From Scilla litardierei (taxonomy: Eukaryota > Streptophyta > Magnoliopsida > Asparagales > Asparagaceae): DNA of 64,000 nt. How positions within the stretch are numbered: the stretch's first letter is position 1; every line of letters begins with the position of its first letter. A program made the translations under genes and the position numbers. Location of the stretch: positions 106,897,262 through 106,961,261 of the forward strand of contig CM061135.1 of assembly GCA_030789695.1 (NCBI GenBank), read 5' to 3'. Shown here piece by piece: positions 23,061-50,480 of this stretch. Below the pieces are notes generated by a model. The model was not told the DNA's origin and did no database searches. It worked only from the letters and a program-made list of their open reading frames with translations.

Positions 23061-23068
23061 TATTTAAA
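23061..23068 (+). promoter_or_regulatory. Probable LTR TATA box
   Basis: TATTTAAA lies downstream of the U3 repeat array and just upstream of a C/T/A-rich leader. The same site is in the 3' LTR at about 30379. Confidence 0.55.
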
Positions 23069-24960: not shown

Positions 24961-26092
24961 ATGGCAGGAAGACGTTTCACCCGTGGTGGGGGTAGTGGCA
25001 CGGTCCCTCATGATGTGGAGCCTGAGCGGGAACCCACCAGCGGTGAGATGATGCGGATGATGATGCAGATGATGCAAGTGCAGCAGGGCGTGCTTCTGCA
25101 AGTCCAGAATGCTCCACTTGCTCGAGCTGCCCGGGCTCTTCCGGATGCCCCTCGCTCTGAGCCAGGAGCGAAGCAATTTCGGGAGCTGGGTCCCGCGTAT
25201 TTTGATGGGTCTGAGGGTCCTCTGGCTGCCGATGAGTGGATTTGGAACATCGAGGACAATCTGAAGATGGCCAAGATCACCCCGGCTGGATGGGTTGATT
25301 TGGCGAAGAGGCAACTCAAGGATAATGCTCGGAATTGGTGGGACGCGGAAGAGAAGTTGTTGGTGGAGCCGATAGCTTGGGCTACCTTCAAGGCTAGATT
25401 TGATGGTGAGTTCTTCCCGAAGGCTGCCAGGGAGGAGATGCTGCAGCGTTTTATCGATTTGAAGCAAGGGAACTCGTCGGTGGACATGTATCACCAAGAG
25501 TTCATGAGGCTTAGTCGGTTTGCACCAAAGATGGTGCAGGACGCTGAGGAGAAGGCTCAGAGGTTCCTGCAGGGGCTTGCTTCGGAGCTCCAGAGTTTTA
25601 TGACCTCCTCTGACCGGGAGTCTTATCAGAAGGTTCTGGTCGCTGCCAAGAGGCAGGAGCTGCTCGTGAACCAGAGGAGGGGATCTGTTGTTGGTGCTGG
25701 GAAGAGGCTTGTGGAGCAGGCGAGAGTTGTGGTTAGACCTGGATTCAGGCCTAACCAGTCTGCTCAGTTCAAGAGGCCAGGAGGGCCCGTTCGGAGGACT
25801 TGCCATTTCTGTGGCAAGGAGGGCCATGTCAAGGAATCGTGTAGGAGGTTCTTGGGGTAATGTATTGCCTGTGGAGATCCCGCCCATGTTCTCAGGGAGT
25901 GCCCGAGGTTGAAGCAGCCTTGGAAGGCACCTGTTACAGCACATCCGTTGCAGCAGCGAGCGTCTGTTCCTGCTGGTCGTGGGGCGGCTCTTGTTCCGCA
26001 GGGGCAGGCTTTTCGGCAGGCTGTTCCGCCGAGGAGGCAGGCTTTTCTGATGACCGCTGCGGAGAGCGAGGCTGTGGATGAGGTTATCGCAG
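24961..26092 (+). pseudogene. gag of the gypsy element, one nonsense codon
   Basis: The frame starts MAGRRFTRGG at 24961, 143 bp after the LTR. The capsid region (WIWNIEDNLKMAKI...WWDAEE...FPKAAREEMLQRF...EFMRLSRFAPK) is of the retrotransposon gag type. The first zinc knuckle is CHFCGKEGHVKESC. TAA at 25858-25860 breaks the frame between this knuckle and a second (CIACGDPAHVLREC) in the same frame. It then runs to an inferred splice donor at 26093 that links it to protease. Gag packages the RNA and forms the particle in the cytoplasm. Confidence 0.9.
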
Positions 26093-26204
26093 GTAATCCT
26101 CAATCTAGCTGTTACTTTCCTAGCTGGTTTGATTGTTAGATTGTGTTGTTTGCTTGAACATGTTTGTTTGCTAGACTAGGGTTTGATTGTTAATTGATTG
26201 TTAG
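26093..26204 (+). other. Inferred intron between gag and protease
   Basis: The donor is CAG|GTAATC and the acceptor is GATTGTTAG|GTGTG, 112 bp, phase 1. Splicing keeps one frame through gag and pol (…EVIAG-VILVC…). Without it the gag frame stops at 26137-26139. Confidence 0.6.
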
Positions 26205-29200
26205 GTGTGATTTTGGTTTGCACATTTCCTGCACGAGTCCTCTTTGACTCTGGCGCATCGATGTGCATTATTTCTCGGAGCTTCGTGGAGAGGCATTCCT
26301 TGTCGACGTCCCCTCTTCCGAAGAGTTGGAATATCGTTACAGGGAATGGCGTGGTCTCGGTGCATCGTGGTTGCAATTCTTGCTCGTTGGTGGTCTGTGG
26401 ACATGAGCTTTTCGCTGATTTCATTGTCCACGACATCATCAACTATGATGCAGTTCTTGGGATGGACTGGCTTGCGAGCTTCTATGCTACGATCGACTGT
26501 CGGAGGAAGAAGGTGGTGTTCGAGATTCCCGGACACCCAGTGTTTGAGTTCAGTCGTGGTAGCAGTTCGCTTGGTCCTGTCAGATTTCGGGCCAGGCCGG
26601 TGTAGGCTGTGGCTATGCAGATGGAGCTGGAGTGGCCAGCTGTGGTGCGAGATTTTGGCGACGTCTTCCCCGAGGAGATGTCTGGTTTGCCACCTGATCG
26701 GGCTTTGGAATTTTCTATCGATCTTGTTCCAGGTGCGCAGCCGATTTCGAAGGCGCCGTATCGTATGGCACCTGTAGAGTTGGAAGAGTTGCGGAAGCAG
26801 TTGGATGAGCTTTTACAGAAGGGTTATATTAATCCTAGCGTGTCTCCGTGGGGAGCACCGGTGTTGCTGGTTAAGAAGAAGGATGCTTCGCGTCGCATGT
26901 GCGTGGATTATCAGGAGTTGAATGCGGTGACCATTAAGAATAAATACATGTTGCCTCGCATCGATGATATTTTTGATCAGCTTGGAGGTTCGAGGGTGTT
27001 TTCTAAATTGGATTTGAGGAGTGGTTACCATCAGTTGAAGGTGAAGAAGGGAGATGTTCTGAAGACAGCGTTCAGGACGAAGTATGTACACTATGAGTTC
27101 GTGGTTATGCCTTTTGGCGTAACTAACGCGCCCGTAGTTTTCATGAATCTGATGAACCTGATTTTCTACGACTTTTTGGATAAGTTTGTCGTTATCTTTA
27201 TTGACGACATTCTAATCTATTCGAAGTCGGAGGAAGAGCATGCCTCGCACTTAAGGACGGTGTTGGAGAATTTGAGGAAGCATCGGTTGTATGCTAAGTT
27301 TTCAAAGTGCGAGTTTTGGCTGGATCAAGTTGCTTTTCTCGGGCATGTGGTGACTGGAGATGGTATTTCAGTGGATCCTGAGAAGATTCGGGCCATTAGG
27401 GAGTGGCCTATTCCGTCGTCTGCGTCTGAGATTCGGAGTTTTCTTAGACTCGCTGGTTATTATCAGCGATTCATTAAGGACTTTTCTCGTATTGCTGAGC
27501 CGATGACCAGGTTGACGCGGAAGGATGGTGCTTTTGTTTGGTCGGGTGATTGTGAGAGTGCTTTTGGTATTCTGAAGGAGAGGTTGACGACTACCCCTAT
27601 TCTTGTTGTGCCTGATCGCAGCGGTGGATTTGAGATCTTTTGCGATGCTTCTGGCAAGGGTCTCGGTTGTGTGTTGCATCAGCACAGGCACGTTGTGGCG
27701 TATGCGTCTCGTCAGCTTAAGGTTCATGAGAAGAATTACCCGACGCATGATTTGGAGTTGGCTGCCGTTGTGTTTGCTCTTAAGATTTGGAGGCACTTCC
27801 TGCTGAGTGAGAAGGTGAAGATTTTCACCGATCACAAAAGCTTGAAGTATATTTTCACTCAGAAGGAGCTCAACATGCGACAGCGTCGATGGTTGGAGCT
27901 TATGGCGGATTATGAGATTGATTTGCAGTATCACCCTGGCAAGGTGAATGTGGTTCCGGATGCTTTGAGTAGGCTCCCAGCGGTGATGATTTTGACCTCG
28001 CAGTGGAGATTGCAGCAGGATTTTTGTGAGTCTGGCGTGGAGATTGTTCTTCCTGGGGAGGCTTCGTCGTTGATGTACATGCAGGTACAGTCGACGATCG
28101 TGGATCGGATTAAGGCTGGCCAGGCTGAGGATCCGAAGCTGGTAAGGATTCGGGAGCAGGTGGAAGCCGGTCTGCGGACGGACTTTTTGATTCATAAGGA
28201 TGGCTCGATGAGGTTTGGAGCCAGGTTGTGTGTGCCAGCTGGGGATATCAGGGAGGAGTTGATGGTGGAGGCACACAGTTCGCCGTATTCTGTGCATCCT
28301 GGTGGCACCAAGATGTACCAGGATCTTCGTCTGAATTATTGGTGGCATGGTATGAAGAGGAGCGTGGCTCGGAGTGTAGCCAAGTGCTTGGTTTGCCAGC
28401 AAGTGAAGGCGGAGCATCAGCGTACGGCCGGGTTGCTACAACCACTTCCGATTCCGGAGTGGAAATGGCAACACATCACTATGGATTTCGTGACTGGACT
28501 ACCTCGGAGTCCGAAGCAGAATGACGCGATTTGGGTGATCGTAGATCGATTGACCAAATCTGCGCACTTTATTCCGTTCCGAGTGGGACAGTCCACTGAG
28601 GCGCTAGCAAGGAGATATATGGAGGTAAAATTCTTTTTTTTACTCTCCGTTTTATTTCCTTTTCCTAGTTTGGATAGTGATGTAACGTGAATCGCGCAGG
28701 AGGTTGTGCGACTTCATGGAGTCCCCGTGAGTATCGTGTCTGACAGAGACACGAGGTTCACATCTCAGTTCTGGCAGAGTTTGCAGAAGAGCTTGGGTAC
28801 GCGTCTGAGTTTCAGCACGGCGTACCACCCGCAGACGGATGGCCAGTCTGAGAGGACGATTCAGATTTTGGAGGACATGCTGAGGGCGTGCATGTTGGAT
28901 TTCAAGGGTTCATGGGAGGACCATCTACATTTGGTGGAGTTCTCTTACAACAACAGCTTCCAGGCGAGTATTGGCATGGCGCCTTTCGCCGCTCTTTATG
29001 GGAGGAAATGTCGATCGCCATTGAGTTGGGATGACGTTGGTGATCGGGAGTTGTTGGGACCTGAGATGATCGTGGAGGCCGTGGATATCGTCAGGAATAT
29101 TCGGGAGAGGTTGAGGATTGCTCAGGACCGTTTTAAGCATTGGGCGGATGCTAAACGTCGTCCTTTGTAGTTTCAGCCGGGCGACCATGTGTTCTTGAAG

Positions 29201-29602
29201 ATTTCCCCGAATCGTGGTGTGATTCCTTTCGGGAAGCGTGGGAAGTTGAGCCCGCGATACATTGGACCGTTTGACGTTTTGGAGAGGGTTGGCGAGGTAG
29301 CTTATCGCTTGGCCTTGCGGCCATCTTTGGAAGGAGTTCACAATGTTTTCCATGTGTCGCAGCTTCGTCGATACATTAGCGATCCGTCTCATGCGGTGGA
29401 TTTTTCGGAGATTACCGTTCGCCCCGATATGACGTATGACCAGCATCCAGTGCAGATCCTGGACAGGCGTCAGAAATCGCTTCGGAACAAGATTGTCAAT
29501 CTTGTGAGGGTGATGTGGCGACACGGTTCACCTGGAGAGTCTACTTGGGAGAATGAGGATGAGATGCGAGAGCGTTTCCCACTTTTGTTTCCGGACTCGT
29601 GA
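26205..29602 (+). pseudogene. pol of the gypsy element: PR, RT, RNase H, IN, C-terminal domain
   Basis: Protease: LFDSGAS active site (about 26240). RT: YRMAP start, LDLRSGYHQ, and FIDDILIYS active site (about 27200). RNase [17 protein letters not shown] and FTDHKSL (27640-27850). Integrase: an H..H..C..C zinc region with [12 protein letters not shown] (28385-28420), catalytic [15 protein letters not shown] and the Glu-bearing GQSERTI. The C-terminus has VHNVFHVSQLR and a Tekay-type tail with W...STWE. TAG at 26603-26605 (between protease and RT) and TAG at 29168-29170 (integrase) are in-frame breaks. A 75-bp intron (28625-28699) is inferred inside integrase. These products would copy and insert the element; this copy is defective. 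Confidence 0.93.
28625..28699 (+). other. Inferred intron within integrase
   Basis: The donor is GAG|GTAAAA and the acceptor is CGCGCAG|GAG, phase 0. Removal restores [14 protein letters not shown], the expected continuity of integrase. The T-rich interior and in-frame stop fit an intron. Confidence 0.75.
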
Positions 29603-29640
29603 GTATTTGGAAATTCCGAGGACGGAATTTTTCTTAAGTT

Positions 29641-29648
29641 GGGGAGGA
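29641..29648 (+). promoter_or_regulatory. Polypurine tract
   Basis: GGGGAGGA lies immediately before the TG of the 3' LTR, the expected primer site for plus-strand synthesis. Confidence 0.8.
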
Positions 29649-32147
29649 TGTAACGACTGCTTTTCATGTATCTGGATTTAATATAATATAATATATGTTT
29701 TGGTGGATTTTCTCCTCTTGTGTGGTTTTCGTCTCCGTAGATTTCATTTTCGATCGATTCGTCGTATTTTCTCGTTTCTTCCTTAGGATCGTCGATTTCG
29801 AAGTGTGTCACTCGTGACGGACTTCATAACGGTCGTATCTAACTATTAGATCAAGCCTAGGAGTCTTAGGAATCGATCTCGGGGCCCCACGCTCCGTATC
29901 GGAACTTTTGGTGCTCATTAGCCGGTGTAAGAAGGGCCACCGACCGACTAGATGCCGATCCAGTCGGTCGGCAATCCTTCTTGGACCGACTAGTTTGCTT
30001 TCTAAATTTCTCAGGAGTTACTGTTTATCGTTAGTCGGTCTAAGAACGTTGGTTGACCGACTAGGTTGCAAACTAGTCGGTCGGCAATGCTTCTTTAACC
30101 GACTAACTCATCATCTTATTTTTGTATCAGCTACTGTTTACTCTTAGTCGGTCTAAGAACGTTCATCGACCGACTAGATGATAAACTAGTCGGTCAGTAT
30201 TTGTTCATGGACCGACTAACTCTAGAATCCTATTTTCGTTCAGGAGTTACTGTTTGCACTTAGTCGGTCTGCGTTGGTCGACCGACCGACTAGTTGCCAA
30301 ACTAGTCGGTCAGTGGTTGCTCTTTGACCGACTAACTAGTGTTGAAACCCTAATTTCTGGGCAGCCGCCAGCTCAACCTATTTAAACCCAACCCAATCGA
30401 TTTCATCTTCTCCAACACGACCTAAAACCCTAAAATCTTCCCCCTTCAGCCCCCATCTTCCTCCAAGCTTCATTTCTTCATTCCAAGCCTCAAATCCATC
30501 ATCCAAACCATCCATTCACTCCATCCACCTCTCATCTTCCCCAAAATCTCACCAAAACCCATCAAAATCCCCAAATCCCCCAAAACCCTAGTTTTCCCAA
30601 ACTTCTCCAATCTTCTCCAGATCTGAACCTAGGGTTCCCCGGAGAGTTCCTTCCGTCTCCTCTCGGTAAGAAATCGATCTACCGTTGTTTTCATATCCTA
30701 TTGTAATTTTTATGAAACCCTAATAAAATACTTGTGTTTTGATGAGTGTTCCCTATAACAGCGATTCCTCGTAGGCTAGCATCCGCGGAAACGAACTTTC
30801 GTAACCGTCATCTCCGGTGATAGGTAAGTGAAACTTGCATCTCTTGATTTGGGCCATGTCTTAGGCCATTTACCTTGCTTTAGCGTAAAAGAGACTAGAC
30901 GGTGAAAGGATAGCCGTTTAGACGCCATTGACCTAGCTTGACAACGAAGCTTGGTCCGTCACCCTCATCATGCTTGTATGTCACGTTTACTTTAAATTAA
31001 CGGTACGCGAATATGTTCATGCCATTGCATATTGCATGTCATGTTTAAATTCGATTAACTGTACGCTAATGTCTGTTCCTGGCATCGCATAGTGATTAAT
31101 TATTGTGATTGCGTAGCACACGCTACAACGCTATTATTTTCATGGCTCGTGTTCCAGAAGCGAGCCCTGTAGTTGGAAACCCCAACGCTCGACACATATG
31201 GGTGGGGTAAGAGATAAGCGGACTGAGCCTCGAGTTGGCCTGATCCGCCACTCCGGCCAGCAGGTGGACTCTCTAGTGCACAAGTGTTTATTAGTGATAG
31301 AGATAAGCGGCCTGAGCCACGAGCTGGCTAGCAGGTGGACTCTCTATCCACTAAGTGATGATCGTGATAAGTGTTTATTAGTGATACGAGATAAGCGGCC
31401 TGAGCCACGAGCTGGCCAGCAGGTGGACTCTCTATGCACTAAGTGATAAGTGACAAGTGATAAGTGATAAGTGATAAGTGATAAGTGATAAGTGAATAGT
31501 GATTAGTGAATTGGTAGCTTTCGCTACATCGTGCGTGCTTGTCTCTCTTTTAAACTGCTGCATCATGCTTAACTGCCATGTCATTGCTTATCACTATAAC
31601 TGCTAGGTTGCTAGTTCCCCTTACTTTCAGTTTCCTTGCCCAAGTCTTTTAGACTTGCTGACATGTGCCCCTTTACTCTTTTGGGTGACACATGTTAGAT
31701 CCTGAGCCCAAGTACCTTGTTGAGGACGAGGTGTTTGCTGACGCCGAGCCCGAGCTTGTGTTTGACGGGGAGTACGTGGACACTGGGGACCAGTCCTAAT
31801 GTCTTCGTTGTGTTTTGCTTTTGTTAGACAGTTGTTTTGTTGTCGGTGCGTAGCACCTATACTTTGTTGTTATGACGTTTCTTTTGTTGGCCTTGTTCTG
31901 GGCCTTTAGACTCTTTTCTTTTAGCCTGGTGGCTTTTCTGGATGTTGAACTTATTTTTCTTGTTGGACAATGTATGAGATGTGAGATTTTATTTCAGTCT
32001 CTCCTTGTGTTATTATTGTTATTCTGTTGTGGTTACATGGACATGCTTATGTATTATTGACGCTTATCGGGTTTGGGTCTTCACAGCTCCACTCCCGTGC
32101 GGACCTTTTCACGTCTCGCCTCCATCTCAGGGAAGCGGGTCGTGACA
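29649..32147 (+). repeat. 3' LTR
   Basis: The LTR is 2499 bp. Compared by eye with the 5' LTR it has about 24 substitutions and one 12-bp insertion near 30856-30868. That is about 1% divergence, which means a recent insertion. Confidence 0.95.
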
Positions 32148-32280
32148 GCACAACGGGCAAAATTATGCCAGTCGTGCGAATTTAGCTGCTGTATCCCATA
32201 ACATAAATGTTCAAAGCGCACAACATGCAAAGACATGATGGCGCGTTGAGTTCCCGTTGTGCAGAAATCCCATAAATTTT
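32148..32280. repeat. CGCG hairpin remainder beside the FAR1-OTU gene
   Basis: It continues the motif interrupted by the gypsy element (GCACAACGGGCAAAATTATG), then adds another pair (TTCAAAGCGCACAACATGC facing GCGCGTTGAG...CCCGTTGTGC). It lies directly at the 3' end of the OTU gene at 32356. Confidence 0.75.
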
Positions 32281-32355: not shown

Positions 32356-35274
32356 TCAATGATCTGATGATACGGTAATTACAGTGGGAGATTTGCCTAC
32401 ATCTTTACAGAATAATGTCTCGAATTGTCGCATCCTCTCTTCAAGGCCTTCCACCCATCCTTTGGCCGCAGGCAGGCGGTTAGCCTTCCAATGCCTTATT
32501 ACCGGTGGGACCGGGCTTCTATCTTTAAGTTGAATCTTTACAAAGTGATTATTATTTACAAAACCTATGGTGAAGGGACCACGTTTCGTACCTTGGTGTG
32601 GTCCTGATCTTAACGGAAAAAATGAAAGACATTGTTGCATTGACAGCAGATGTATTACACAGTTATAATGACTTGAGATTATATGTCCAACTTCAGGGAA
32701 TGTCATCCAATATTGCATCGGGAGGTGGTCACCCATATAGTTAATTGACACTACCTGTTCTTGTGCACTTTCCTCACCCATCACCTTTGAGTACACATCA
32801 TAGTGGTCACGCAGCTCTTGAAGCAACTCTCTTCTGACCACCTTCCACTGGTCCTCTCCCATCCCTAGATGTGAAGATATAGCCCTGTAACCACAGTTCC
32901 CATCTGCCTTCACATCTGTGACGTTCGATATATATTTGGCGATTGCAGCGGGGAATTGATCAAGATAAGGTATGCCTCCTTGAACGGCTCTAGCGTCCTT
33001 TGCTTCATAATTTGCTGCTGCAAATGAAGCTGTAGCAGAAACCCCAGTCATACTGCCAGATGTCGCGGCTTTGATAGTTGGTTTCTTTCTAGCAAGTTGA
33101 GGAGGAATTGGTGGGGCAGACATATTTTTGATCCTTTGGGACCGTCTCGGTTGGACACGGCCGACGCTTTCTTGTTTCGATGAGACTTCAGGTGGAATTT
33201 GAGCAGAGCAACTAGCCGCATCGGCGAAGACATGATCAAAATGAGCAGGATGAATGGGGGTGGCTGTATCTTCATTTGTCAAATTATTATCCCTTTTTCT
33301 TCTTCCATTGAACACGACATTAACTTGCAGATCTGTAATCAGATTTGTCGCCGGGGTAGCAAGCTCCTTCAACTTAATTAACAACTCCTGCTTCATCGGC
33401 CCATCAAGTTGAGCATAGAGCTTGTGTATGCGCTCTAATTCAGCATGTATAAGCCCATCTTCTTCAGACATCAATTCCGTCTTAGCCTCCATGTCTAGCT
33501 GCTTCCAATGAGAATTTACGGCATCTAAGGGAATGTGGCGATTTTCCCTTGTGAATTCGTCAATCTCATTGGCACATGGTACACCATAAATCATTCTAGC
33601 TAGACAATCACCTGTGCATTGGTCCGTTCCCATAGGGTCAGATTTATCAGCTTCCACAGACATTATCTTCAACGCCGCAGCGGCTGTAAATCCTATCAGC
33701 TCCCTGAACAAGAACCCATGCACCTTATGTTGCAACATGATCTTAGATTTCTCTAATGATGCCTTGATCTCGATATGCTGCCCCTCTAATGATTCATGTA
33801 TGGTTGGCCAAGAAGCGGATAAACTGAAGGCAGATGAACCCAATGCCTTTTTAAGCTTAGAATGTTCAGTCTGGGCTCTTTTGGTCTGCGCTCTGTTGGT
33901 ACTGACATTTCCAAAGTGGAGATTGCCATCTGTCCATACAGAAATAAACTTCTCCTTGTACTTGTCCAACCAAGATGTCTTCACATAGCTCACGACCCTT
34001 GTGTAATCTTTGTACTCGGTCTCCACTGCCTTCAGTTTAGCAACATACTCCTCCTCCTTGCGTGCCCCCACCAATAAATTCCCGCTAGAGATGAAACCTA
34101 ACCATTTTTCTTGATCTTCAAAAGAGGGCTGGCAATTTTTGGCAATATTTTTTGATATGTGCATTCTACATATTTGGTGCACCGCAAGGGGAAATTCATG
34201 GCCAATGGCATTCATAAGTGCTGGCTCCAGTGCTGACAAAATTACACGTGACATCCTGTATCCATGCAGCAAAGAGCTCAACTTCCCCAAGGCCCACAAG
34301 TAGTTCTCCTCACATACGGCCTCCGTGTAACAAAATGCCGCTGTGAACTGAATATCTGTGGATGTCACCCCATACATCTCCATCAATGGTGGCCTGTTGC
34401 GGTTGGTCTTCAACGCGCAGTCCATAACCAGAATCTCTGGAAATTTTCGTAATAACTCAACCGACTGCGGATGTGCCCAAAATATAGTCCTCACTGCAGT
34501 TGTCACTTCGTCCACTTCATGATACACAATGTAATTACGTTGTGTCAGTAGATTAAGGAATAGCTGCATTTCTGCTCTCCAGGCCATTTCCCATGCCTTC
34601 ATCCTCTGTCTGGCTTTATAAATAGTGTTGATTGTGATAGATGTTGCATTATCCTTTTCCTTCAGGTATTTCAAGATTTCCCTTGGCCTAAGCAATCTAT
34701 TTGACAAGTCTCTCACCGTGGCCATCTCCCCACCTCCGAACCTCCTCTCATCTGGATGTCGCTCGATGTACATTGCGGGTTTATGGTTGTGATTGCCACG
34801 TACAACTGTCAAAATCCACTTATCTATTGCCACACCATTAGCCCTCAAGTAGAAGGGACATGAGCACTTCTTGCTTCGAGTTGATTTTTTGGCCGATATG
34901 TCCGGCCTGTGTGGCCGATATGTCCCACTTCTTTCACAACAAAAATAATAAGTTGGGACCCTATTGCCCTTTGTACTCATATTTGATGATTTTGTAACAA
35001 CCAAATTCCCGGTTTTCACACCGACCCCTTTTACCCATTTACCAAGCTCTTCTATGCTGGGGAAAATTTTATTTGTTGTGAACTGATTTGTATAATCTTC
35101 ATTAACCTCTGAGCCTTCAACAATACGCTGAATTAAGTACCAGATACCAATATAGTCACTAAATGTTAAGCTTTATTTTCTAGTAAATTAGTCATTTAAC
35201 AAAGCAAAATAATTTCAAACCTTTGCTTCTTTGTCCGCTTCATCCCAGATCCCCTCAATGTGTACCGAGCTCAT
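32356..35274 (-). CDS. FAR1 DNA-binding / MULE core / OTU protease fusion (OTU gene 1)
   Basis: The model joins exon 1 (35274-35221, 18 codons from MSSVHIEGIWDEADKEAK) to exon 2 (35127-32356) across an inferred intron, giving 941 residues with no stop. Order: FAR1-type zinc cluster (Cys81/82, Cys106, Cys108, His131, His133; RSKKCSCPF, RGNHNH), MULE transposase core (about 240-530), basic linker, OTU domain (about 745-885) with Asp760, Cys763 (ADGNCGYR) and His879 (NNNHF). The core keeps the first Asp (VMDCALKTN, 254) but the second is Ala (VILSALEP, 317) and the Glu position reads Gln (RAQTEH, 437). The SWIM region lacks CxC and its His (PCANE). So transposition chemistry is probably lost, while DNA-binding and deubiquitinase-like parts look intact. 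The FAR1-MULE-OTU architecture is, as I recall, also found in other plant MULE proteins. It lies head-to-head with OTU gene 2. Confidence 0.88.
35128..35220 (-). other. Inferred intron 1 of OTU gene 1
   Basis: On the minus strand the donor is AAG|GTTTGA and the acceptor is TAATTCAG|CGT, 93 bp, phase 0. The first exon is short and its choice rests only on frame and splice sites. Confidence 0.5.
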
Positions 35275-35726
35275 CTCAATCTTCGTAATTTCTACGCAAT
35301 CATGTTCCAAATGTACATTGCAGCAATCAATTTCTGAAATTATTAAAAAATACCAAATTAATTAGCATCAATTAATGGCTTACCAACTTTACGATGCAAT
35401 GCGTCCGCAGTCAACTATTTTAGGGCACCCCAACCCAATGACACAAATCTTTTGCTCTGCCTTAAGGACCTTCGTTTGATATAAGCAGGAAGTCTTATAG
35501 TCTATATACATCAGCGAATTAGAATAATTTCTGTTGATCAAACCCTATCTCGTTAGCTTTTCCCGCCTTAGGTCACAAAACTGATCGCATATGGAAGCTG
35601 TTATGATGCATTTGTATATACGGATGCGTAAAAATAGTGGTTCACAGTGTAAATTACTCATCGCGAACAGTGGGAGGGCAAAAATGTAAAAGATCTCCTT
35701 TGTGAACCGTCTAGCAGTATGCCCAC
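35275..35726. other. Upstream region of OTU gene 1
   Basis: This is the left part of the roughly 1.1 kb between the two divergent OTU genes. It is AT-rich with no further open frame and probably holds the leader and promoter of OTU gene 1. I see no unambiguous TATA box. Confidence 0.35.
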
Positions 35727-35910
35727 CGCACACAACCGCGCAAAACATGGAATTGCTCAGCGCACATAACCACGCAAAACTGGGAATTGCTCACCGCTCA
35801 CATCCAATCAAAACACGGAATTGCTCAGCGCAGACAACCACGCAAAACTCGGAATTGCTCAGCGCACACAACCACTCAAAACCCGTAATTGCTCACCACC
35901 CACAACCGTT
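35727..35910. repeat. 34-bp minisatellite built from the CGCG/GCTCA motif
   Basis: Units start at 35727, 35761, 35795, 35829, 35863 and a partial at 35897, all exactly 34 bp apart. Each has the form CGCACACAACCACGCAAAAC followed by TCGGAATTGCTCAG. It lies between the divergent OTU genes 1 and 2. Confidence 0.9.
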
Positions 35911-36365
35911 TTGGTCAAGTCCACGTGCACATGTGGACGGGTTATTTGCTAGTAATATTTCAAACTAGACTTGTTTACTCAACTAGCACAACGGGTAAAT
36001 TATTGTAGACCCGATATGACCCGGTAGGACCCGAAATTGTCCCGTGATACCTTCTGCTCGCAGCGAATTGACAGACAATTACACAGATTGCTCACGGCGG
36101 AATTTCAAAAGGCAAGTATTTTCAAAGATCGCTCCAGTCGCCCAGACCGAAATCCAAAAGCTTTGATTTTTATTTAATTGCTCGAAGGATACATCACTTA
36201 GTCAACTGGTGAGATCAAACAAAGAGCTGAATCGAGAGAAATCGATTTAGGGGGTTTTGACCTAAATTTATCAACATCGACACTTTGGTACGTCTATACT
36301 TTTAAGTACAGTTTATCTGACTTTCTTATTTTGATTTTACATGCATTCATCCACGGTTGAGGTTG

Positions 36366-38067
36366 ATGAAGTCGGTACAAAAATCCAAGGTAATATTGAT
36401 TTATCTTCTCGGCAATAATGCATTAAATCTTTGAGGATCAGGTTATGAATTGTTTGATACAGGATACTATGGATTTTACAACCGACTTTACCACCAATCA
36501 ACTGTTCAAGGATAGAAAAGAGCTGTTTCAGTGGATACAAAATGTCGGGTTAAGTCATGGGCATGTGATTGTTACACGTTCGGGGAGATTAAGTAAAACG
36601 GCCAAAGGGCATCATGCTGTGTACTTTGCGTGTGAAAGAAGCGGTGAGTATTGGGGACACCGAAAGCTAAAAAAGACCAACCAGCCTGTTAAAACCAAGA
36701 AGTGTTCATGTCCTTTCTCATTGCGTGGTTATATGGTGGGCGTGGGCGTTGAGGAGTGGAAGGTAACAGTCGTTTGTGGCAGGCACAACCATGAAGCAGC
36801 TAAATATGTCGATGGCCATTCCGATGACGGGACGTTGCAGGGAATGGAGATGGAAACAGTGCGTGACTTGGCAAATAGCAAGGTTCGGCCAGCTGAAATT
36901 TTGAAAGTACTGAAGGCAAATAAAAACTTCAGTGCAACCTCAATCAAAGCAATTTATAATGCACGAAACCGGTTACAACGGGGGAAGAAGGTTGGTATTG
37001 TAAAACAGTTGAAGGAGTTAGCATCAGCTGATAAAATTGTGGGTGCTGAGAATGTGAAGGCTGTGAATAATGAGGGGGAGGATCAGAAGGTGGGGGAGGC
37101 TTTTTGGGAGAATGCAGTGCCTGCTGAGTTGCAGGAGGAGGATCATACTGGGAAGATGGGTGGGGAGGATGATAAGGTGGATAGTAATGAGGCGGAGCAG
37201 ACTGCTGAGGAGGAGGATGATGATGATGAGAATGCAGTGGCTAAGGCCTTTGAGAAGGAGCATGAGGTTCTACGTCTTCAAATTTCTACTCTGGTAGCGG
37301 AGATTGCTAAGCAGCATGCTGAGATAACCGATACGTCTACATTGACGTGTAAACCGGGTAAGGGAAGAAGTAGACCGTTGTGGAAATGTACAATAAAGAA
37401 GCCGAAACAATCAATTTCACATGATGATAGTGACGAGGACTTGGCTGCCGACATAATAATACCATATTGGAACGCTTTTCCTGAGTGTCTACGACCCCTT
37501 ATAGTGCATGTCGTAGATGTGAAAGCAGACGGAAACTGTGGGTATAGGGCTGTGGCAGCTCAGTTGGGACTGGGTGAGGACGAATGGAGGCAGGTGAAAT
37601 ATGACTTACGAGAAGAGATGCAGAACCACGACGGCTTGTACCGGCAACTTATGGGTGCCGTGGAATTTAAAAAGAATGTAGTGGCACTGGGCCATTTGTT
37701 AGACCGTCCAAAAGCTAAATGGTGGATGCAGATGCCAGAAATGGCACATGTCATTGCCTCATGCTACGACTGTGTAGTACATATTCTTGCACCTCATCAG
37801 TGTGTGACATATTTTCCTTTAAGAACTCCTCCAGTACCCCTATCATCTAGACGCCACATAACGTTGGGTCATGTGAACAATAATCACTTCGTTATTGTTA
37901 AACTTGCCCCATATAGTCCTGTCCCTCCGAATTCAAGTATGTGGCTAAGATACCGTTCCGATGTGTCAGCCGGATGGCCAGCTGCTTATGAGGATAGGAT
38001 GCATCAATTCCAGTCAATAGTATTTGGTCACGATATTGCAACCGTTGACGTTATTGAAATATTGTAG
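36366..38067 (+). CDS. FAR1 DNA-binding / acidic coiled coil / OTU protease (OTU gene 2)
   Basis: The main exon is open from 36463 to 38067. A short first exon (36366-36389, MKSVQKSK) joined across a 73-bp intron (36390-36462) keeps frame; the alternative start is Met at 36469, giving 532 residues. Numbering from that Met: FAR1-type zinc cluster with Cys55, Cys79, Cys81, His106 and His108 (KKCSCPFSLRG, GRHNHEA); helix ending in YNARNRL (about 165); acidic region 205-255; Leu-rich coiled coil (VLRLQISTLVAEIAKQ, about 267-282); OTU domain with Asp354, Cys357 (ADGNCGYRAV) and His473 (VNNNHF). There is no transposase core: the sequence passes from YNARNRLQ directly to VGIVKQLKELAS, which in OTU gene 1 lies behind the core. 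All visible OTU catalytic residues are present. Probably a nuclear protein; function unknown. Confidence 0.87.
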
Positions 38068-38465
38068 GATAAAACGTTGTATCATTTTACTATGGATTGT
38101 TTATTTCATATTGACAGATTGGTAGCATGAAATTTTATCATGTCTGCCTAAATGTGCAAATGTTATCATCTATATGCCGTGCTGTGGTGTATCGTATCTA
38201 TAAGTTATGCTCAACGATAGACCTACTAATCAAGTTTGCCTCTTACTAACTTTTTGGTGAACGGGTACAAACTGATATATACTGGATTTTGAATGCTTAA
38301 TAACACACGCAATCTATCCAGATTTTCTTAAGGGTGTTAATTAATACAACTAATGATAGTTATCACGTTGGTATTATATTATTTTATACGTATCAATAAT
38401 GTTGTTAACATCGGCATAAGAATATGAGTAATCCAATAGAATAAATATTAAAAACAAAATTTAGA
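38068..38465. other. 3' region of OTU gene 2
   Basis: AT-rich, no open frame or repeat seen. Its start resembles the region after OTU gene 3 (GGATAAAACGTT... versus AGATAAAACGTT..., AAATTTTATCATG, AAATGTGCAAATGT), so the duplication includes the 3' ends. Confidence 0.5.
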
Positions 38466-38469
38466 ACTC

Positions 38470-38690
38470 CTCAGCGCGCACCACGGTCAAAATCGTTCTC
38501 ATCGTCGCGATTAATAACGATTACCGTTACTAATGTCAATCTTGATAATCCATGTAAGATTAATCATCGCGCAAAACGGTTCAAATCGTGTTAAAATATA
38601 ACCATTGTGCGTGCTGAGTAAAATAAGCAAACTAAACCACCGAATTTACTCGAAGCGCACAACGGGTTAAAATTTTTACCCGTTTTGACC
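38470..38690. repeat. CGCG motif cluster between OTU genes 2 and 3
   Basis: Halves lie near 38475 (CAGCGCGCACCACGG), 38568 (CATCGCGCAAAACGGTTC), 38602 (CATTGTGCGTGCTGAG) and 38650 (TACTCGAAGCGCACAACGGG). Confidence 0.65.
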
Positions 38691-39068
38691 CATTAGGACC
38701 CTCTTTCATCCCTTGATAAATTCTGCTCACCGCTCACAGACATAACCTTCCACAGATTGCTCAAGGCGGAATATCAAACGGCAAGTTTTTCGTAGATTGC
38801 TCAAGGCGCACAGACGGAAATTCCAAAGATTTGATTTTTATTACTGGGCTCGACATTTACATCACAGTGGCAACTGCTGTGTTCAAACAAATCGGTGAAG
38901 CGATAGCAATCGATTTAGGGGTTTTCAACCTAAATTTGTCGAAATCGCGATTTGGTAAGTATACAATGTTAAGTACATTTTATTTGATATTCTTATTACA
39001 ATTACAATGTGTAGAAAGAGGAGGAGAAATTTTTGGTTTTTACTTGCCTGCAGATACAGTTGAGATTG

Positions 39069-41407
39069 ATGGAGATGCTAAAATATTCCGAGGTAATATT
39101 GATTTTTCTTTACGTCAATAATGTAACTAATGTTTGGTTCCCGGTCCAATTAGTTGTATGAATTGTTTGATACAGGTGTATATGGATTATACAGCCGAAT
39201 TTACAACGAGTCAACGTTTTAAAAGTAGAGACGAGCTCTTTCAGTGGAAAAAGAGCGTCGGACGACAACATGGGCATGTGATTGTTACCAGTGCGTCGAG
39301 TATCAGTAAATCGTCCAATAGGACTCCCGCTGCCTACTATGCATTTGCAAGAAGCGTGAACTACAGGGGACACCGACCAGTACGAAAGAGCAACCGACCA
39401 GTTAGAACCAACAAGTGTGGATGCCCGTTCAAATTGCGTGGTAATGAGGTGGGCGATGGCGGTGAGTGGAGTTTAACGGTCGTTGATGGCAGGCACAATC
39501 ATCAAGCTGCTAATTATGTCACGGGCCATTCCGACGACGGGATGTTGCAGGGAAAAGAGGTGGAAGCATTGCGAGACTTGGCAAATAGAAAGGTGCCGCC
39601 GTCAGCAATTTTGAAAAGCCTGAAGGAAACTAAATCCTTCAATGAAACACCAATCAAATCAATTTATAATGCACGTTCCTGATTACTAAGGGGGCAGAGT
39701 GTGGGTATGGTAAACAAGTTGAAGGAGTTAGCATCACCGTGTAGAATTGTGGGTGATGAGCTTGTGGTGCATGTGGATAATGTTGAGGAGGAGCAGAATG
39801 GAGATGAGGAGAAGGTGGATGAGGCTGAGGAGGCGACTGCATTGGCTGCTTATTGGCAGGATGATGTGGTGGATCGTAATGCGATGGAGCAGGCTGCTGA
39901 GAAGTTGGCTCTTAGTGGGCAGGCGTAGAATGCTGCGGAGGAGGATGAGGTTAATGCAGCGGATGAGAATGTGGAGCCGAGGGTGCATGATGTTTATGGG
40001 GATGATGAGGCTGAGAATGCAGTGGCTGCTGAGTTGACTGTAGATGATTATGTTATTGGGGAGATGGTGGAGACGAAGGAGACGGTTGCCCTTAACGTGG
40101 AGGTGCAGAATGCTGAGGAGGTACTGGTGGAGGATAATGCAGCGGCTGAGACTGTGGAGCCGAAGGTGTATGAGGAGAAGGTGAACGAGGAGGAGGATGA
40201 TAAGGAAGTGGCTACTGATTTGATTGCTGAGGAGCATACTGGGAAGTTGGTGGATACGGCGGGGACGGTGGAACGTAATGTGGCTGACCAGACTGCTGAG
40301 ATGGATGAGGGGGAGAATGCAGCTGGGGAGAATGAGGAGCCGCAGGAGGATGAGGCAAATGTGGAGGATGTGGAGGATGAGAAGATAGAGGATGCTAGGT
40401 TGATGCAAGCTGAGCTTACGTTGGAGTTGGGGGTGACGGTGGAGACGGGGGATCATAATGTGGATGCTCAGACTGCTGGGAGGGAGGAGGAGACGGCTGT
40501 GGCCTCGTATTTTGATGAGCACGAGGAGATGGATGGCATGCTTAAACAACTTTCTCCCCTGGTTGATGAGATTTCTGATCATTTTTCGGATGTGACGGAG
40601 ATGCCTACAGTTATGAGGAAGCTTGTTAAGGCTCCACGGTTGCATTCAATTGCGGAGCATACGGCGGCGGCGAAGGAGAAGCCTAAATGGAAGAGGCGGC
40701 CTTCGAAGGAAAGTAGTAGGCGTCCGAAACTTCAAATAAAGAAGCCGAAACCTTCGTTTCCCCGTGATGATTATGTTGATGATTTGCCTGCCAACTTCCT
40801 CATACCATATTATTTGGATTTTGATCCCAAGCTACGTGACCTCATAGTGGGCGGCGTAGACGTGGATGCAGATGGCAACTGTGGGTACAGGGCTGTGGCA
40901 GTTCAGTTGGGCTTGAAAGATTCCGATTGGCGGACTGTCAGAGCTGATTTGCTCCGTGAGATGCGGACATACAACGTCTTGTACATGCGTGTTCTGAGCG
41001 AGGTTTCATATAATAATAATTTGAAGGAAGTGAACTATTTTATTACTGATAAAGGTGCAGGAGAGGAAAATTGGATGCAGATGCCAGACATGGGACATGT
41101 CATTGCCTCATGCTACAACTGTGTAGTACATTTGATTGCAGATGAAATGTGTGTGACATTTTTTCCATTGAGAAGTCCTCCAGTAAACCGAGCCTCCAGA
41201 CTCCACATAACGTTGGGTTATGTGAACAGAAATCACTTTTTTATCCTTCAACTTCAACCAACAGGTGACGTCCCTCCGACTTCAGTTGTGTGGACAAGAT
41301 CGCATGACCCTGTGGCCGATGGATGGCCGGCTGGTTACGAGCAGAGGATGCAGTCATTCGTTGATAGGGTAAAAGGTACGAATATTGCTACCGCTGATGC
41401 TTTTTAG
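39069..41407 (+). pseudogene. FAR1 DNA-binding / acidic repeats / OTU protease (OTU gene 3), two nonsense codons
   Basis: One reading frame runs from Met 39182 (or an upstream exon 39069-39092 joined over 39093-39175) to 41407, broken by TGA at 39680-39682 and TAG at 39926-39928. It is a tandem duplicate of OTU gene 2, with promoter and leader regions also matching (38640-39190 versus 35960-36480). The zinc cluster has lost its first Cys (YYAFARS where gene 2 has YFACERS), but KCGCPF and GRHNH remain. The acidic middle is much longer (about 250 residues of degenerate Glu/Asp/Val repeats), then the OTU domain with ADGNCGYRAV and NRNHFF is intact. A protein starting after the second stop (Met near 39971) would hold the acidic part plus a complete OTU domain. 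Confidence 0.82.
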
Positions 41408-41549
41408 TATCTGTAAGATAAAACGTTTATCAATGTAATAAGTTTTTTTTGGTATAAAAATGGACCACTTTAGCGGATGAAATTTTATCATGCTTCCGAA
41501 ATGTGCAAATGTCATCATCGGTATGGATTGATGTTGTGTATCATACCAA

Positions 41550-42575
41550 TTACACCGAGCACAACACTGCAGTAATATTGCCCGTTTTGCGCTTTGAGTA
41601 ATTATGTCTTTACCTACCAAATTGCTCAACGCGCAGAACTGGCAATATTAGTGCCGGTTTTGCGCTCTGGGTATTTTTAATAACATCAACCTTTGTTCCA
41701 AATTGTTATGCGATGAGAATGTGTCATTGTTAGTGTGTCCAATACTCCAAGTGAGAGCAGGGTTATTGTATCATATATGTTATTGTCTGACAAAATTGCT
41801 TACCACAAACTCACATTGATAAGTTTTGCCCGTTGAGCGCCTTTATTAGCCAATTTGTTAGTGGTTACTACAATTGCTCACCATTCACCACGATCAGAAC
41901 AAATAATTTTGACCGGTTGTGCGCGGTGAGCAATTTTGTTAGTGCGAAAAAAAAACTCCGACTCATCCACTCAATAAAATTTGCTGATATATCCACATTT
42001 ATTGCTGCTCGCACCGTGCAAATTTTTAATGGTTAACAGAAATGCTCACAGCGCACAACGGCGATATATTGGAACCTTTGGTCTTACTAATAGTCTAAGA
42101 GACCCCTCGAGTCTGCAAAGCAGTGTTGGTGAACATACAGAGCAGGGATCGTTAATATACAGCGGATTGCTACCAGCCGGATGTTCTGCTCTATAATGAT
42201 TAATGCATGCCTAAGTTTTGCGCGTTGGGATAAACTGTAGCCACTAAAAAAGTAGCCCAACGCGCACAACGGGCAAATTTATGCCCTCAGGCTCGGGCAA
42301 AATTACGAGCACAACGGGAAAACAACGCGCACAACGGGCAAAAATTACGCGCACAACGGGCAAAACAACGCGCACAACTGGAAAAAAGGAAAGCCGGTGG
42401 TTTGCTTTTTGAGCATATAAAAGGTAGTTTATCAACAATTGTTAAACGCGCACACACCTAGTAGCCTTATGCCCGGTGTGCGCGTTGAGCAAAGTTGCGA
42501 CGATATCGCATTTGCTCAACGCGCCCCGCACGGACTAATTTTGCCCGTTGTGCGCTTTGAGCATATTTGTTGGAT
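41550..42575. repeat. Dense CGCG motif and hairpin cluster after OTU gene 3
   Basis: Motif halves occur about every 40-80 bp: near 41625 (TTGCTCAACGCGCAGAACTG), 41920 (CGGTTGTGCGCGGTGAGC), 42050 (TGCTCACAGCGCACAACGG), 42250-42390 (five direct copies of GCGCACAAC(G/T)GG), and 42475-42565 (three facing halves). Between them lies a variant of the 90-bp subterminal block (42090-42190). This is the left start of the right-hand repeat region. Confidence 0.75.
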
Positions 42576-42981
42576 GCTGTACTTTTTGTTCCAACGGTCA
42601 ATCATTCACACTCCTATTTTCATCATACTAAAATTGTGATTCCGTAATATGCCAACAGTCAAACTTCACTTAGAAACTTTACCTAATTGTGATTAAGACC
42701 GATATTTATTCATTCTGAAGACATTTTATATACAATCTGATACCTAGTCAATCTGATTCAGAAACTGCATGCAAACCTTTAGATTAACGCTGATACATAT
42801 TCAAACGGTGACCATTCCAAAATGGCCAACCCATTCTAACATACTGAAGTACGTACAGATACAGATCCAAACAGATACATATCCCTTTACTATTACAAAC
42901 TGATACATTTGAGTGTCTTCACAGATGTTTGCAATGAAGTGGCGCGTGATCTGCGTGTTTCCCCCTTCAACTTCCGCGAGT

Positions 42982-43197
42982 TCATCGGGCGCCCATCTTC
43001 GTTGCGTTTATTAACGTCCTTGGATAGTTGGATATGAGTGTCGCGTCGTTGTAACCTGCAGTCAAGTATGTAGCCGTGTCAAACACAACGCCTGGAACCC
43101 TGATTCCCCTGTGGCGATGTACGACACGGGCAATGCGCTCCACATCTACGTTGCAGTTGCCGAATTTCTGCCCTGATCTGCTCAAGATGATTGTCAT
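42982..43197 (-). pseudogene. Unknown protein fragment with GVVFDTATYLTAGYNDA
   Basis: A 71-codon open stretch contains RIARVVHRHRGIRVPGVVFD and TATYLTAGYNDA. The TATY(L/P)TAGY(N/T)DA core recurs at about 46470, 49660, 53020, 56340, 59660 and 62980 in ever more similar copies. I do not recognise a family. Confidence 0.4.
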
Positions 43198-43584
43198 ACC
43201 AGATGTTTGTAATGACGTGGAACTTTGTCCTTTGTAGGAGACGCCGTGAATTGGAAAGTCGGCAGACCGTTTCGCTTATTACCGTCTTTGCTGTCGTCGT
43301 TGTAACATGAAGTCAGGACAAACGACACCGATTGGAACTCCGTTACCGGAGACGATGTAAAACAACACAGGGTTGCATAAGAAGTTGTGTTTGGGAGTGT
43401 AAGAGATCGGAAAGGATAGGATGGAGTGTCTGTGCGTCAAAGATGATGTATAGTGAAACGATGAAGGGGTTGATGGAGGAGATGGAGTGTATAAAGAGGA
43501 GATGGAGATGGATATGGAGTGTATAGCAAGACACGCAAACCAAATACATAGCCATAATTCATAATAGGAGGGAATAATAATCTA

Positions 43585-43990
43585 TCATGGTACAACACCC
43601 AGCAGCTTTCCTGAAACATGTGAGACAACATAGCCAATATCACCCCAAAAGAATATGGTATGATCATCGTACACATTTTTCATAGTGTTGTTTGGGACAA
43701 ATTTTCTCAACGCAGTTGCTACACCCCCCAGCATTGTCGGGGATGCTTGATTATAAATGGACGATAGCCCTTCGTTGCATAAGTTTCCAACATGAACCAT
43801 TTACCTTTACGTGAAAAGAGTACTGGATGAATGCTATCGTCCATATCTATATCAAGCATGCACAAACAGCTGAAGGACTTATTGTTTCCATACGGAGGTT
43901 GTGTGGGAAAATAAAGAAGATGATAGAAGAAAGTAGACGAAGTTTAGAGAAGATGAGTGCTCGTTGTCTGCCATTTATAGGGGAAATTGG
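43585..43990 (-). pseudogene. Unknown gene-like unit with promoter
   Basis: On the minus strand, CCAATTTCCCCTATAAATGG (43971-43990) is a CCAAT/TATA module like those of the left cassettes. It is followed by a stretch encoding DIDMDDSIHPVLFSRKGKW and ETYATKGYRPFI, then ALRKFVPNN and DDHTIFFWGDIGYVVSHVSG. The MDD.I.PV.FSRK.KW and KGYRPFI parts recur in the later 3.3-kb units (for example 59930-60136). Function unknown; frame breaks are present. Confidence 0.4.
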
Positions 43991-44084
43991 ACCAATCATA
44001 ATGAAGCGTATAAAAAGTCTGTGATCCTACAGTAATGCAATGGATCTCGGGAATCAACATTTAGAGCATCTCCAAAGGGGCTCC

Positions 44085-44480
44085 CTAAATTATTTTAGAA
44101 TGTGGAAAAAAATAGGTTATTTACTCTCCGCGCAAAACCATGAAACCCTACTGTTTTTCGCCTTGATCACATAATAGGAAAATTACACTCAACAATACTA
44201 CTCTCCACTAAGATTTTTTAATACATTATATTCGCCGCGCACACCGGGCTAAATAATACAGAGGCGAGTAACTATCATAATTGCTCACCGCACAGAACGT
44301 TTAGAAAACGAGAATTGCTCAATGCACAAAACGCAGAACGCATGACAGCGAATTGTATTGATGAGAAGAAGTAGAGTTAATGTGTGGCTACATCGAAGAC
44401 CCCGTCATGCTACAGAGGGGTTCTCGTGAATATACAAAAGACTGCTCATCTACAGCGGATTGATCTCAGACATATGAAGA
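44085..44480. repeat. Diverged copy of the unit region found at 48480-48960 and 51650-52110
   Basis: Shared landmarks are ACTCTCCGCGCAAAAC, ACAATACTACTCTCCACTAA, ATTGCTCA(A)TGC and GAAGACCCCGTCA(T/A)GCTACAG. It includes CGCG halves at about 44235 and 44280. Confidence 0.6.
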
Positions 44481-44639: not shown

Positions 44640-44890
44640 TGGTTGTGTGTGGTGAGCAATTCTGAGGTTTGAGTGGTTTTGTGCGCTGAGCAATTCTTAT
44701 TTTTGAGAGGTTGTGTGCGGTGAGCACTTCTGAGTTTGAGTGGTTCTGTGCGATGAGCAATTTTGAGTTTTGAGTGGATTTGTGCGCTGAGCAATTCTGA
44801 GTTTTGAGTGGGTTTTGTGCGGTGAGCTTATTCTGAGTTTGAGTGGTTGTGTGCGGTGAGTAATTCTGAGGTATGAGTGGTTTTGTAGCC
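44640..44890. repeat. 34-bp minisatellite, inverted relative to 35727-35910
   Basis: Seven units of TGTGCG(C/G)TGAGCAATTC plus TGAGTTTTGAGTGGT lie at 33-35 bp spacing (44652-44857). It is the complement of the unit at 35.7 kb. Confidence 0.85.
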
Positions 44891-48224: not shown

Positions 48225-48408
48225 TCATTCAGCTGTTCATCCATTTATAATCAGGCATGCCCGAAAAAGGGTTTCCAGATGTGAGGATTTCACCTTCCAC
48301 GAACAGTTGAAGGACTTACTGTTTCAATAGGAAGGTTGTGGGGGGAAATAAAGAAGAAGATGATGGAAGAAAGTAGATGAAGTAGTGAGAAGATGAGTGC
48401 TCCTTGTC

Positions 48409-48432
48409 CGCCATTTTTATAGGGGAATTGGA
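48409..48432 (-). promoter_or_regulatory. CCAAT/TATA module, third right-hand copy
   Basis: The minus strand reads CCAATTCCCCTATAAAAATG. It is equivalent to 43971-43990 and 46955-46972; in the recent units (for example near 51582) it is degraded to CCAATTCCATATAGC. Confidence 0.55.
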
Positions 48433-50480
48433 GCAATCAAAATGAAGCGTATAATAAGTCCTTGATCCTACAGTAATGCAATGGATCTCGGGAATCAACA
48501 ATTATTTACTCAACGCGCAAACCACGGAATACCAACGCGAAAATCGCGTAATCCCAATTATTTTAGCATCTGGATCAAAATTGGTTAATTACTCTCCGCG
48601 CATAACAATGAAACTCAACGATTTTTCGCCTTGATCAACATTGATGCTAATAGGAAACTTACTCCCAACAATACTACTCTCCACTAAGATTTTTTAATAC
48701 ATTTTATTCGACACGCAACCCGGGCTAAATAATACAGAAGAGAGAAACTATTATAATTGATCACCGCGCAAAACGCATGGAAAACGGGAATTGCTCAATG
48801 CGCGCAACACAGATAGGTCAATGAGGATGTGATGCTGCAGTACAATATTTACTGTGTGGCTACATTGAAGACCCCGTCAAGCTACAGAAGGGTGCTCGTG
48901 AATAAGAAAATACTGCTCCTGAATCTACAACTGATTGATACCAGACATATGATTTTCCCAAGAATGTATGACCAGTGACAAGTGAGCTGGCAAAATTTAT
49001 ATTGTGGCCGTTGTGCGTGGTGAGCAAATTTTTAATGGTTTAAAAATTTTCTCAAAGCGCACAACAAGTATCGCCAGATGTTCACTTTGACCCGGTGTGC
49101 ACGTTCAGTAAATTTGTTATGGCTAACATAATTGTGCAAAGCGCACAACATGCAGAATTATGCCCGTTGTGCGCGTTAAGCTCTATAGTTACGTCGATGA
49201 AAAATTTGCTCAACGCCCCCACGGGAATAAATTTGACCGTTTTGCGCTTTGAGCATATTTGTGAATTGCAATAATTTTAATTCCACCACACACCAGCGCA
49301 TTGAATCAATCACATTCCAAATTTCATCATACTTAAACACGCACAACCAGCAGAATTATGCCCGTTGTGCGTGTTTAGCTAAAGTGTAGATTAAATCGCA
49401 TACATATTCTAGTTGATGTTATTTTGAAAATGACCCAGCCATTCAAATATATTGATGTACATACTGATACAGATCCAAACTGATTCATTAGCCTATGCTC
49501 TTACAAACTGAAACATGTGATTGTCAGTGTGATCTGTGTGCTTCCCCGTCAACTTCCGTGAGTTCATCGGGTGACCATCTTCGTTCCGTTTATTACCGTC
49601 GATGCCGATTTTCTGCCATCATCAGCTGGATATGAGTGTAGTCATAGCATGCGTCGGTGTAACCTGCAGTCATGTATGTAGCCGTTTCAAAGACACTGAG
49701 AGAAACTCCGATTCACATGAGGCGTCGAACAACACCAACAGATCAAAATACTAAACACCGCTGGTCTTTGAACAACTTACAAGCTCAGATGCAGAACTGC
49801 ATGCGGCGATGTGTTCCAGTAAGAGAATACTAAACACTGCATGCGGCCCCAACCTCGTCGCATCTCTTCGTTACAACCTCCTCAAGATCTGCTAAGGCGC
49901 ACGTAGGTGGAGGATCTTCGTTGTAGACAACGAAGGCGGATCCTACGGAGAACACACTGGCATTTGATGCGTCCATCACCAGGTCAACATTCTTCCGGAC
50001 GGTTCGACCGACAGCTAGATCCACCTTTTCGAGGAAGCACCTTTAAGGAGGCTCGAACTGATCGGTGAAGTAAAAGCTTAATCCAGAGAAGATCTTCACC
50101 GCCTGTAAGAGACCAATATAAGAGACCAATATGATATGTGCACTACTGGACATGGGCCTCCGCATACGCATACACAAGGAAAAGTGTTCATAAGATGGCT
50201 TCCTCCGATAATTATCCAAAGACTCAAATAGTTCAAAACATTTTCCAATTCAAATAGTTCAAAGGCGCGACATGCCGTCATTGGCGTGTCATTACAGTCA
50301 CTTCCCTGCTCGTTTTGTAATTTCTGTCGCTTTACTTGAGCATCATCAACATCATCTGTTCGGACGAGGAAATGGATGTGTGACTCTTCACATCGTTTGA
50401 TTTTCTGGAAATCTGAGACAACCATGCCTTTTGTGTTTCCGCACAGGTTACAGGCTTCCAGCTTCTGCATTATGAGACAA
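48410..50480. repeat. Third diverged unit of the right-hand repeat
   Basis: 48418-49710 aligns throughout with 51582-53080 of the recent array (same order: promoter, CTCAACGCGCAAACC, hairpins 48990-49385, GATCTGTGTGCTTCCCCGTC, GTAACCTGCAGTC). 49750-50480 is not found in the recent units. It holds minus-strand open stretches (49830-50024, 50096-50480) of unknown type. Confidence 0.7.
48990..49385. repeat. CGCG hairpin cluster of the third unit
   Basis: GGCCGTTGTGCGTGGTGAGC faces TCTCAAAGCGCACAAC, with further pairs at 49130-49180 and 49345-49375. Confidence 0.75.

Follow-up and report, generated by a model that had tools for sequence, protein, structure and literature searches.

MULE transposases have repeatedly been turned into plant transcription factors. 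The FAR1/FRS/FHY3 factors, which arose in this way, combine a FAR1 zinc cluster, a MULE core and a SWIM finger. Here we describe three neighboring genes in a 64,000-nt window of Scilla litardierei (contig CM061135.1; the window is the whole stretch of DNA that was analyzed), the first of which follows the same plan with a dead core. Unlike FAR1/FRS/FHY3, the genes of this locus add a C-terminal OTU domain, and genes 2 and 3 lack both core and SWIM. Gene 2 resembles FRF and other FAR1-only genes in having lost core and SWIM while retaining FAR1, but differs from them in retaining OTU. The best explanation overall, to which we assign a probability of roughly 0.48, is that a transposase was reduced to its DNA-binding and OTU ends and that gene 2 is plausibly a sequence-directed deubiquitinase.

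Repeated loss of core and SWIM by frameshift and nonsense mutation is reported for FAR1 genes (PMC8599713 and PMC13306707). The former counts 570 integrated domains in FAR1 genes, and FAR1-only genes account for 5,559 of 18,744 FAR1 genes in 80 species (PMC8599713). For FRF1-4, competition at promoters is proposed (PMC13306707). The term OTU is absent from the main texts of both papers; the supplements of PMC8599713 may list it. Ginger1 transposases are described with a C-terminal OTU or Ulp1 domain and Mutators with Ulp1 (PMC2836005), so that both join a transposase to a C-terminal ubiquitin- or SUMO-type protease, as here. In contrast to the present genes, Ginger1 has a different, integrase-like transposase, and Mutators are credited there with Ulp1 rather than OTU. 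Arabidopsis OTLD1 is a histone deubiquitinase without DNA binding of its own; the transcription factor LSH10 is its reported partner (PMC9845307). There, too, an OTU deubiquitinase is brought to DNA, but DNA binding resides in a separate partner, whereas gene 2 would hold both in one chain. The identical domain order is found in eudicot FAR1-MULE-OTU proteins with public names such as "PKS-NRPS hybrid synthetase" and "FAR1-RELATED SEQUENCE 5/6"; unlike the genes described here, 21 of the 43 such proteins that we fetched keep the catalytic D, D, E. A term search of a review of Mutator diversity for protease, peptidase, ULP and OTU returned none (PMC6446971). Further, no paper joining OTU with FAR1 or plant MULEs was recognized among the top results of partly broad searches of the open-license literature, and neither these nor the protein searches turned up a FAR1-OTU gene that lacks the core and whose sites stayed under constraint once it was gone. 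Such fusions may be described in an older survey on WRKY-GCM1 zinc fingers and transposons.

An open-reading-frame check of the window located the frames of genes 1 to 3 where the original prediction had placed them, and their proteins were searched against Pfam profiles. In sequence models, the main exon of each gene is plausibly preceded by a short first exon with ATG and a phase-0 intron with GT..AG ends. The main exon of gene 1 (32356..35127, minus strand) encodes FAR1, a degenerate MULE core, a degenerate SWIM and OTU, within a frame (32359-35172) that is uninterrupted for 938 codons; a first exon with ATG is placed at 35221..35274 by the in-frame GT..AG model only. On the same strand, Pfam matched FAR1 at 34780..35016 (residues 53-131; E 8.4e-07) and MULE at 34147..34434 (residues 247-342; 3.3e-11). 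The OTU domain, at 32395..32973, was delimited by its match to that of gene 2, with a Pfam OTU match (residues 755-853) at 0.002, below the Pfam cut-off.

The decay of gene 1 is concentrated in the transposase core. The alignment bore out the earlier claim that two of three catalytic acids are changed: only the first remains, and the second and third are replaced by Ala and Gln. Note that the identity of these residues and of the zinc ligands below is what we take it to be from family knowledge, read onto the alignment. At the expected third acid, a 15-base tandem duplication (33869-33900) places RAQTKRAQTE where the family has RVES. The SWIM finger is broken too, with two of four ligands gone (Cys to Gly and His to Asn), and all five aligned Cys/His positions of the FAR1 zinc cluster are retained. 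Across columns at least 90% conserved in 12 references, which were drawn from 22 aligned relatives, gene 1 kept 46/49 in FAR1 and OTU and 69/100 in core and SWIM (Fisher p = 0.0004); at 80% conservation or more the counts were 65/76 versus 84/129 (p = 0.0019). When each reference was judged by a standard built without it, none of the 12 showed a significant bias of decay toward the core. One (P0008) leaned toward core decay like gene 1 (40/43 versus 87/108, p = 0.08) and another (P0039) showed the opposite bias (p = 0.04). The structure model of gene 1, with a mean predicted local distance difference test score (pLDDT) of 61.9, was not used as evidence.

Gene 2 lies on the plus strand. Its main exon (36463..38067; open frame 36427-38064) encodes FAR1, a stalk, an acidic linker and OTU, with the core absent, and is preceded by an inferred first exon with ATG (36366..36389) and a predicted intron (36390-36462) that is in frame and runs from GTAATATT to TGATACAG. 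The FAR1 domain occupies 36553..36798 (Pfam residues 43-124) and OTU, assigned by sequence match to the other genes and by predicted fold, 37459..38040. Pfam recovered AFT at 3.5e-06, with FAR1 (3.8e-04) and a weak OTU match (0.087) below the cut-off. The zinc cluster retains five of five aligned positions. The linker, of about 158 residues, is 23% Asp plus Glu, and its predicted model is mostly of low confidence except for one long helix. When gene 2 was mutated at random to 0.1 and 0.2 changes per site, it acquired means of 6.2 and 10.8 stops; 0.2% of runs stayed free of stops at 0.1, and 0 of 2000 at 0.2. An open frame is therefore very unlikely under neutrality at the divergence of gene 2.

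As the original prediction had said, genes 2 and 3 have no MULE core by Pfam and DNA alignment, and SWIM is missing as well. An intact D, D, E, as expected of an autonomous MULE, is lacking in all three genes. Genes 2 and 3 arose by tandem duplication and have an identical core-loss junction, placed by the DNA alignment at 36961..37015 in gene 2 and 39671..39725 in gene 3 (both plus strand). The duplication units, at 35974..38196 (gene 2) and 38645..41545 (gene 3) on the plus strand, are about 70% identical in two matching pieces of 1324 and 824 columns, the first of which is continuous across the site of the missing core and SWIM. The first and last eight intron bases are identical between the two genes. 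Non-coding divergence in the 5' flank, the intron region and the 3' flank amounts to 0.31-0.37 substitutions per site. The duplication is old, and it copied a FAR1-OTU gene that had already lost its core. Since the unbroken core-loss junction is shared, the differences between genes 2 and 3 arose when neither encoded transposase. We rejected the idea that genes 2 and 3 had inserted separately, as no convincing inverted repeats or target duplication were found.

The sites that the family conserves in FAR1 and OTU were protected after core loss. Between genes 2 and 3, 13/51 conserved OTU columns differed versus 41/58 variable ones (p = 3e-6), and in FAR1 plus stalk 10/50 versus 36/65 (p = 1e-4); in a third-position control for OTU the difference was not significant (p = 0.11). 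At columns at least 70% conserved, the ratio of nonsynonymous to synonymous rates (dN/dS, omega) was 0.30 for FAR1 plus stalk and 0.34 for OTU, each differing from 1 at p < 0.01 uncorrected (twice the log-likelihood difference, 2dlnL, 6.98 and 7.29). At variable columns omega was 0.89 in FAR1 plus stalk and 1.75 in OTU, the latter not significant (2dlnL 2.89). Positive selection at variable OTU sites is not claimed, the signal being merely suggestive (2dlnL 2.89 and 2.96). The column-difference test used 12 references, chosen after 9 of the 43 relatives had been dropped, at conservation cut-offs of 0.5 and 0.8; the rate test used 17 references at 0.5 and 0.7. The p values are uncorrected for these several cut-offs and reference sets. 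Comparisons with gene 1 gave omega 0.23-0.42, which says little about host function because the span includes time as a transposon.

We use the OTU label because the family profile matches solved OTU protein structures (E 4.8e-04 at best, to 0.03) and because the predicted fold is that of OTU. The profile search that had been proposed as a check recovered FAR1 and MULE in gene 1 and AFT in gene 2, while OTU stayed below the Pfam cut-off in all three genes. The alignment reproduced the earlier observation that the Asp and Cys of the DGNC motif and a later His are present in genes 1 to 3. Two positions past this His, genes 1 and 2 have a hydrophobic residue and gene 3 has Ile, instead of Asp or Asn.

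Gene 3 is probably a pseudogene, because it has two in-frame stops and has lost a zinc-ligand Cys. On the plus strand, an inferred first exon (39069..39092), whose intron ends are identical to those of gene 2, is followed by a broken main exon (39176..41407), in which a TGA (39680..39682) and a TAG (39926..39928) split the frame 39131-41407 into three stretches. Pfam matched AFT/FAR1 in the first stretch and OTU in the last (E 0.065, below the cut-off); the OTU domain, located at 40802..41359 by sequence match and alignment, retains its motif residues. The first aligned FAR1 ligand, Cys, is Phe, leaving four of five positions of the zinc cluster. The proposal that all three genes pair a FAR1 zinc cluster with OTU thus held for genes 1 and 2 and failed for gene 3. 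Rescue by splicing was not convincing: donors at 39560-39682 and acceptors at 39929-40300 form 70 GT..AG pairs that would keep the frame and remove both stops, of which 5 passed a lenient score. All 5 use donor 39593 (6/9 consensus bases), which would cut into the FAR1 stalk, and acceptors having merely 6-7 pyrimidines in 12. Random mutation from the present sequence produced means of 9.0 and 14.3 stops at 0.1 and 0.2 changes per site; no more than two stops arose in 0.25% of runs at the lower level and in none at the higher. Gene 3 therefore probably broke late.

The 43 distinct protein relatives all carry eudicot names, and the order FAR1-MULE-SWIM-OTU is present in legumes, Cannabis, Citrus, Centaurea and others. 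The nearest, a Cannabis protein, aligns with 96% of gene 1 at 38% identity. The searches depend on shared 5-residue words, so that absence beyond the matches is not implied; a profile search gave the same 33 proteins as the first search, and in another, scoring was limited to the 8000 candidates with the most words in common. Among the 21 relatives with D, D and E at the aligned catalytic columns, the OTU Cys and His columns are occupied as well in 13, in P0037 only via a fragment end. No residue stands at the three catalytic columns in six of the 43 (P0018, P0021, P0029, P0030, P0032 and P0043). The family looks like a MULE lineage with an OTU domain, of which some copies may still be mobile and others have decayed. 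The public name "PKS-NRPS hybrid synthetase" of P0001, P0004, P0007, P0009, P0010, P0012 and P0035 is unsupported by their listed Pfam domains.

The idea of stepwise transposase loss with both ends kept stands for gene 1 (69/100 versus 46/49) and for gene 2, where the core is gone and conserved sites are protected, but not for gene 3 as a working gene. Several results weigh against the best explanation. The split frame of gene 3 is one. The original prediction had named a dN/dS near 1 as a refutation, and between genes 2 and 3 omega over the whole OTU domain was indeed 0.97 by maximum likelihood and 1.03-1.28 by three counting methods, with 0.63 for FAR1 plus stalk; only at the conserved sites did it fall to 0.30-0.34. 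Further, the rate tests rest on only three DNA sequences, and highly conserved OTU positions were kept at 35/46 in gene 2, 36/46 in gene 3 and 40/46 in gene 1, compared with 39/48 to 45/46 in relatives with a full OTU domain. A core-less form with FAR1 and complete OTU was not found in other species among the 43 relatives fetched by word-based searches, which weakens the case for long-term conservation. The stops and lost Cys of gene 3, the whole-OTU omega of about 1 and the lower conservation of genes 2 and 3 would all fit decaying transposon remnants without host function, in which conserved-site selection acted early, gene 3 has already died and gene 2 would simply be the last to lose its frame; so would the repeat-rich neighborhood and the several soybean relatives that resemble damaged or partial copies. 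Against such remnants stand the sparing of conserved sites following core loss, the concentration of gene 1 decay in the core and the open frame of gene 2, which neutrality very rarely leaves at the present divergence. We regard this alternative as somewhat unlikely.

In another account, FAR1 would be a competitor or scaffold at DNA, and OTU would bind ubiquitin-like partners with no need of cleavage. The proposal that core-less FRF1-4 compete for promoter sites (PMC13306707) lends this some weight, as does the residue two past the OTU His, which makes the third catalytic residue uncertain, but the Cys, His and DGNC Asp are kept in genes 1 to 3 despite many other changes in OTU, and we give this account a small chance. 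Genes 2 and 3 could instead be accessory to a non-autonomous MULE that an intact relative mobilizes in trans, with selection acting on the transposon rather than on the plant. VANDAL elements, for comparison, carry accessory anti-silencing proteins. The three transposase acids kept in 21/43 relatives make an active partner possible in such a lineage, and genes 1 and 2 lie head to head, about 1.1 kb apart. However, a search round the genes for terminal inverted repeats and target duplication yielded nothing convincing, only short matches, and the short inverted matches lie in or resemble a motif that is dispersed across the window. An inverted 34-bp minisatellite (35720-35907 and 44640-44886) was rejected as a terminal repeat, its outer flanks sharing a word of 7 bases at most and its motif being scattered through the window. 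Further, the direct tandem unit is compatible with unequal crossing-over. MULEs without long terminal repeats exist. For the accessory genes the chance seems slim.

In the explanation that we prefer, reduction of a transposase to its two ends, genes 1 to 3 would derive from a eudicot MULE lineage whose transposase bore an OTU protease domain (FAR1-MULE-SWIM-OTU). As shown above, core and SWIM of gene 1 are degenerate, with FAR1 and OTU retained; the ancestor of genes 2 and 3 lost the entire core and SWIM before tandem duplication, and gene 3 has since broken down. Gene 2, and perhaps gene 1, would be a chromatin protein that contacts DNA via the FAR1 zinc cluster with its helical stalk, followed by the acidic linker as a flexible tether and then by OTU, which, to judge from the families, would remove ubiquitin near the bound site, for example from histones or transcription factors. 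A sequence-directed deubiquitinase is thus a plausible product. It is doubtful, and in our estimate rather unlikely, that gene 2 is a working host protein of this one-piece kind whose OTU surface changes at or above the neutral rate with a fixed active site, as if tracking a moving target; this idea comes from the omega of 1.75 at variable OTU sites since the duplication, which is not significant. For most known plant histone deubiquitinases, the route to their target genes is unexplained. If the preferred explanation is true, a lineage that fuses both functions, and whose copies shed the transposase alone, would be a ready source of site-directed ubiquitin editing, and comparison of core-dead with core-intact relatives could show why transposases carry ubiquitin proteases.

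The remainder of the window is rich in repeats. A retrotransposon with long terminal repeats (LTRs) occupies 22682-32148, its end lying 208 bp away from the stop codon of gene 1; its LTRs (22682-24818 and 30000-32148) are 98.7% identical, indicating recent insertion, and we read it as Ty3-type from its frames rather than from a profile result. A tandem array of units of about 3.32 kb fills 48298-64000, in which neighboring units are 97.6-99.2% identical from 51584 on and the first about 93%; no gene was recognized in the array, and older relatives of parts of it lie at 42437-44477. A 187-bp tandem repeat is present in 12 copies with 95% matches at 16350-18617, and an imperfect palindrome at 41548-41676. 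A motif resembling GCGCACAACGGG is dispersed on both strands over 1-64000 (48 plus and 67 minus occurrences within two mismatches), and its core, GCGCACAAC, hardly occurs between 16 and 20 kb or between 24 and 32 kb. Finally, a further MULE-type frame (Pfam MULE 1.9e-30) lies at 3-1331, with a stop at 645-647 and no OTU match.

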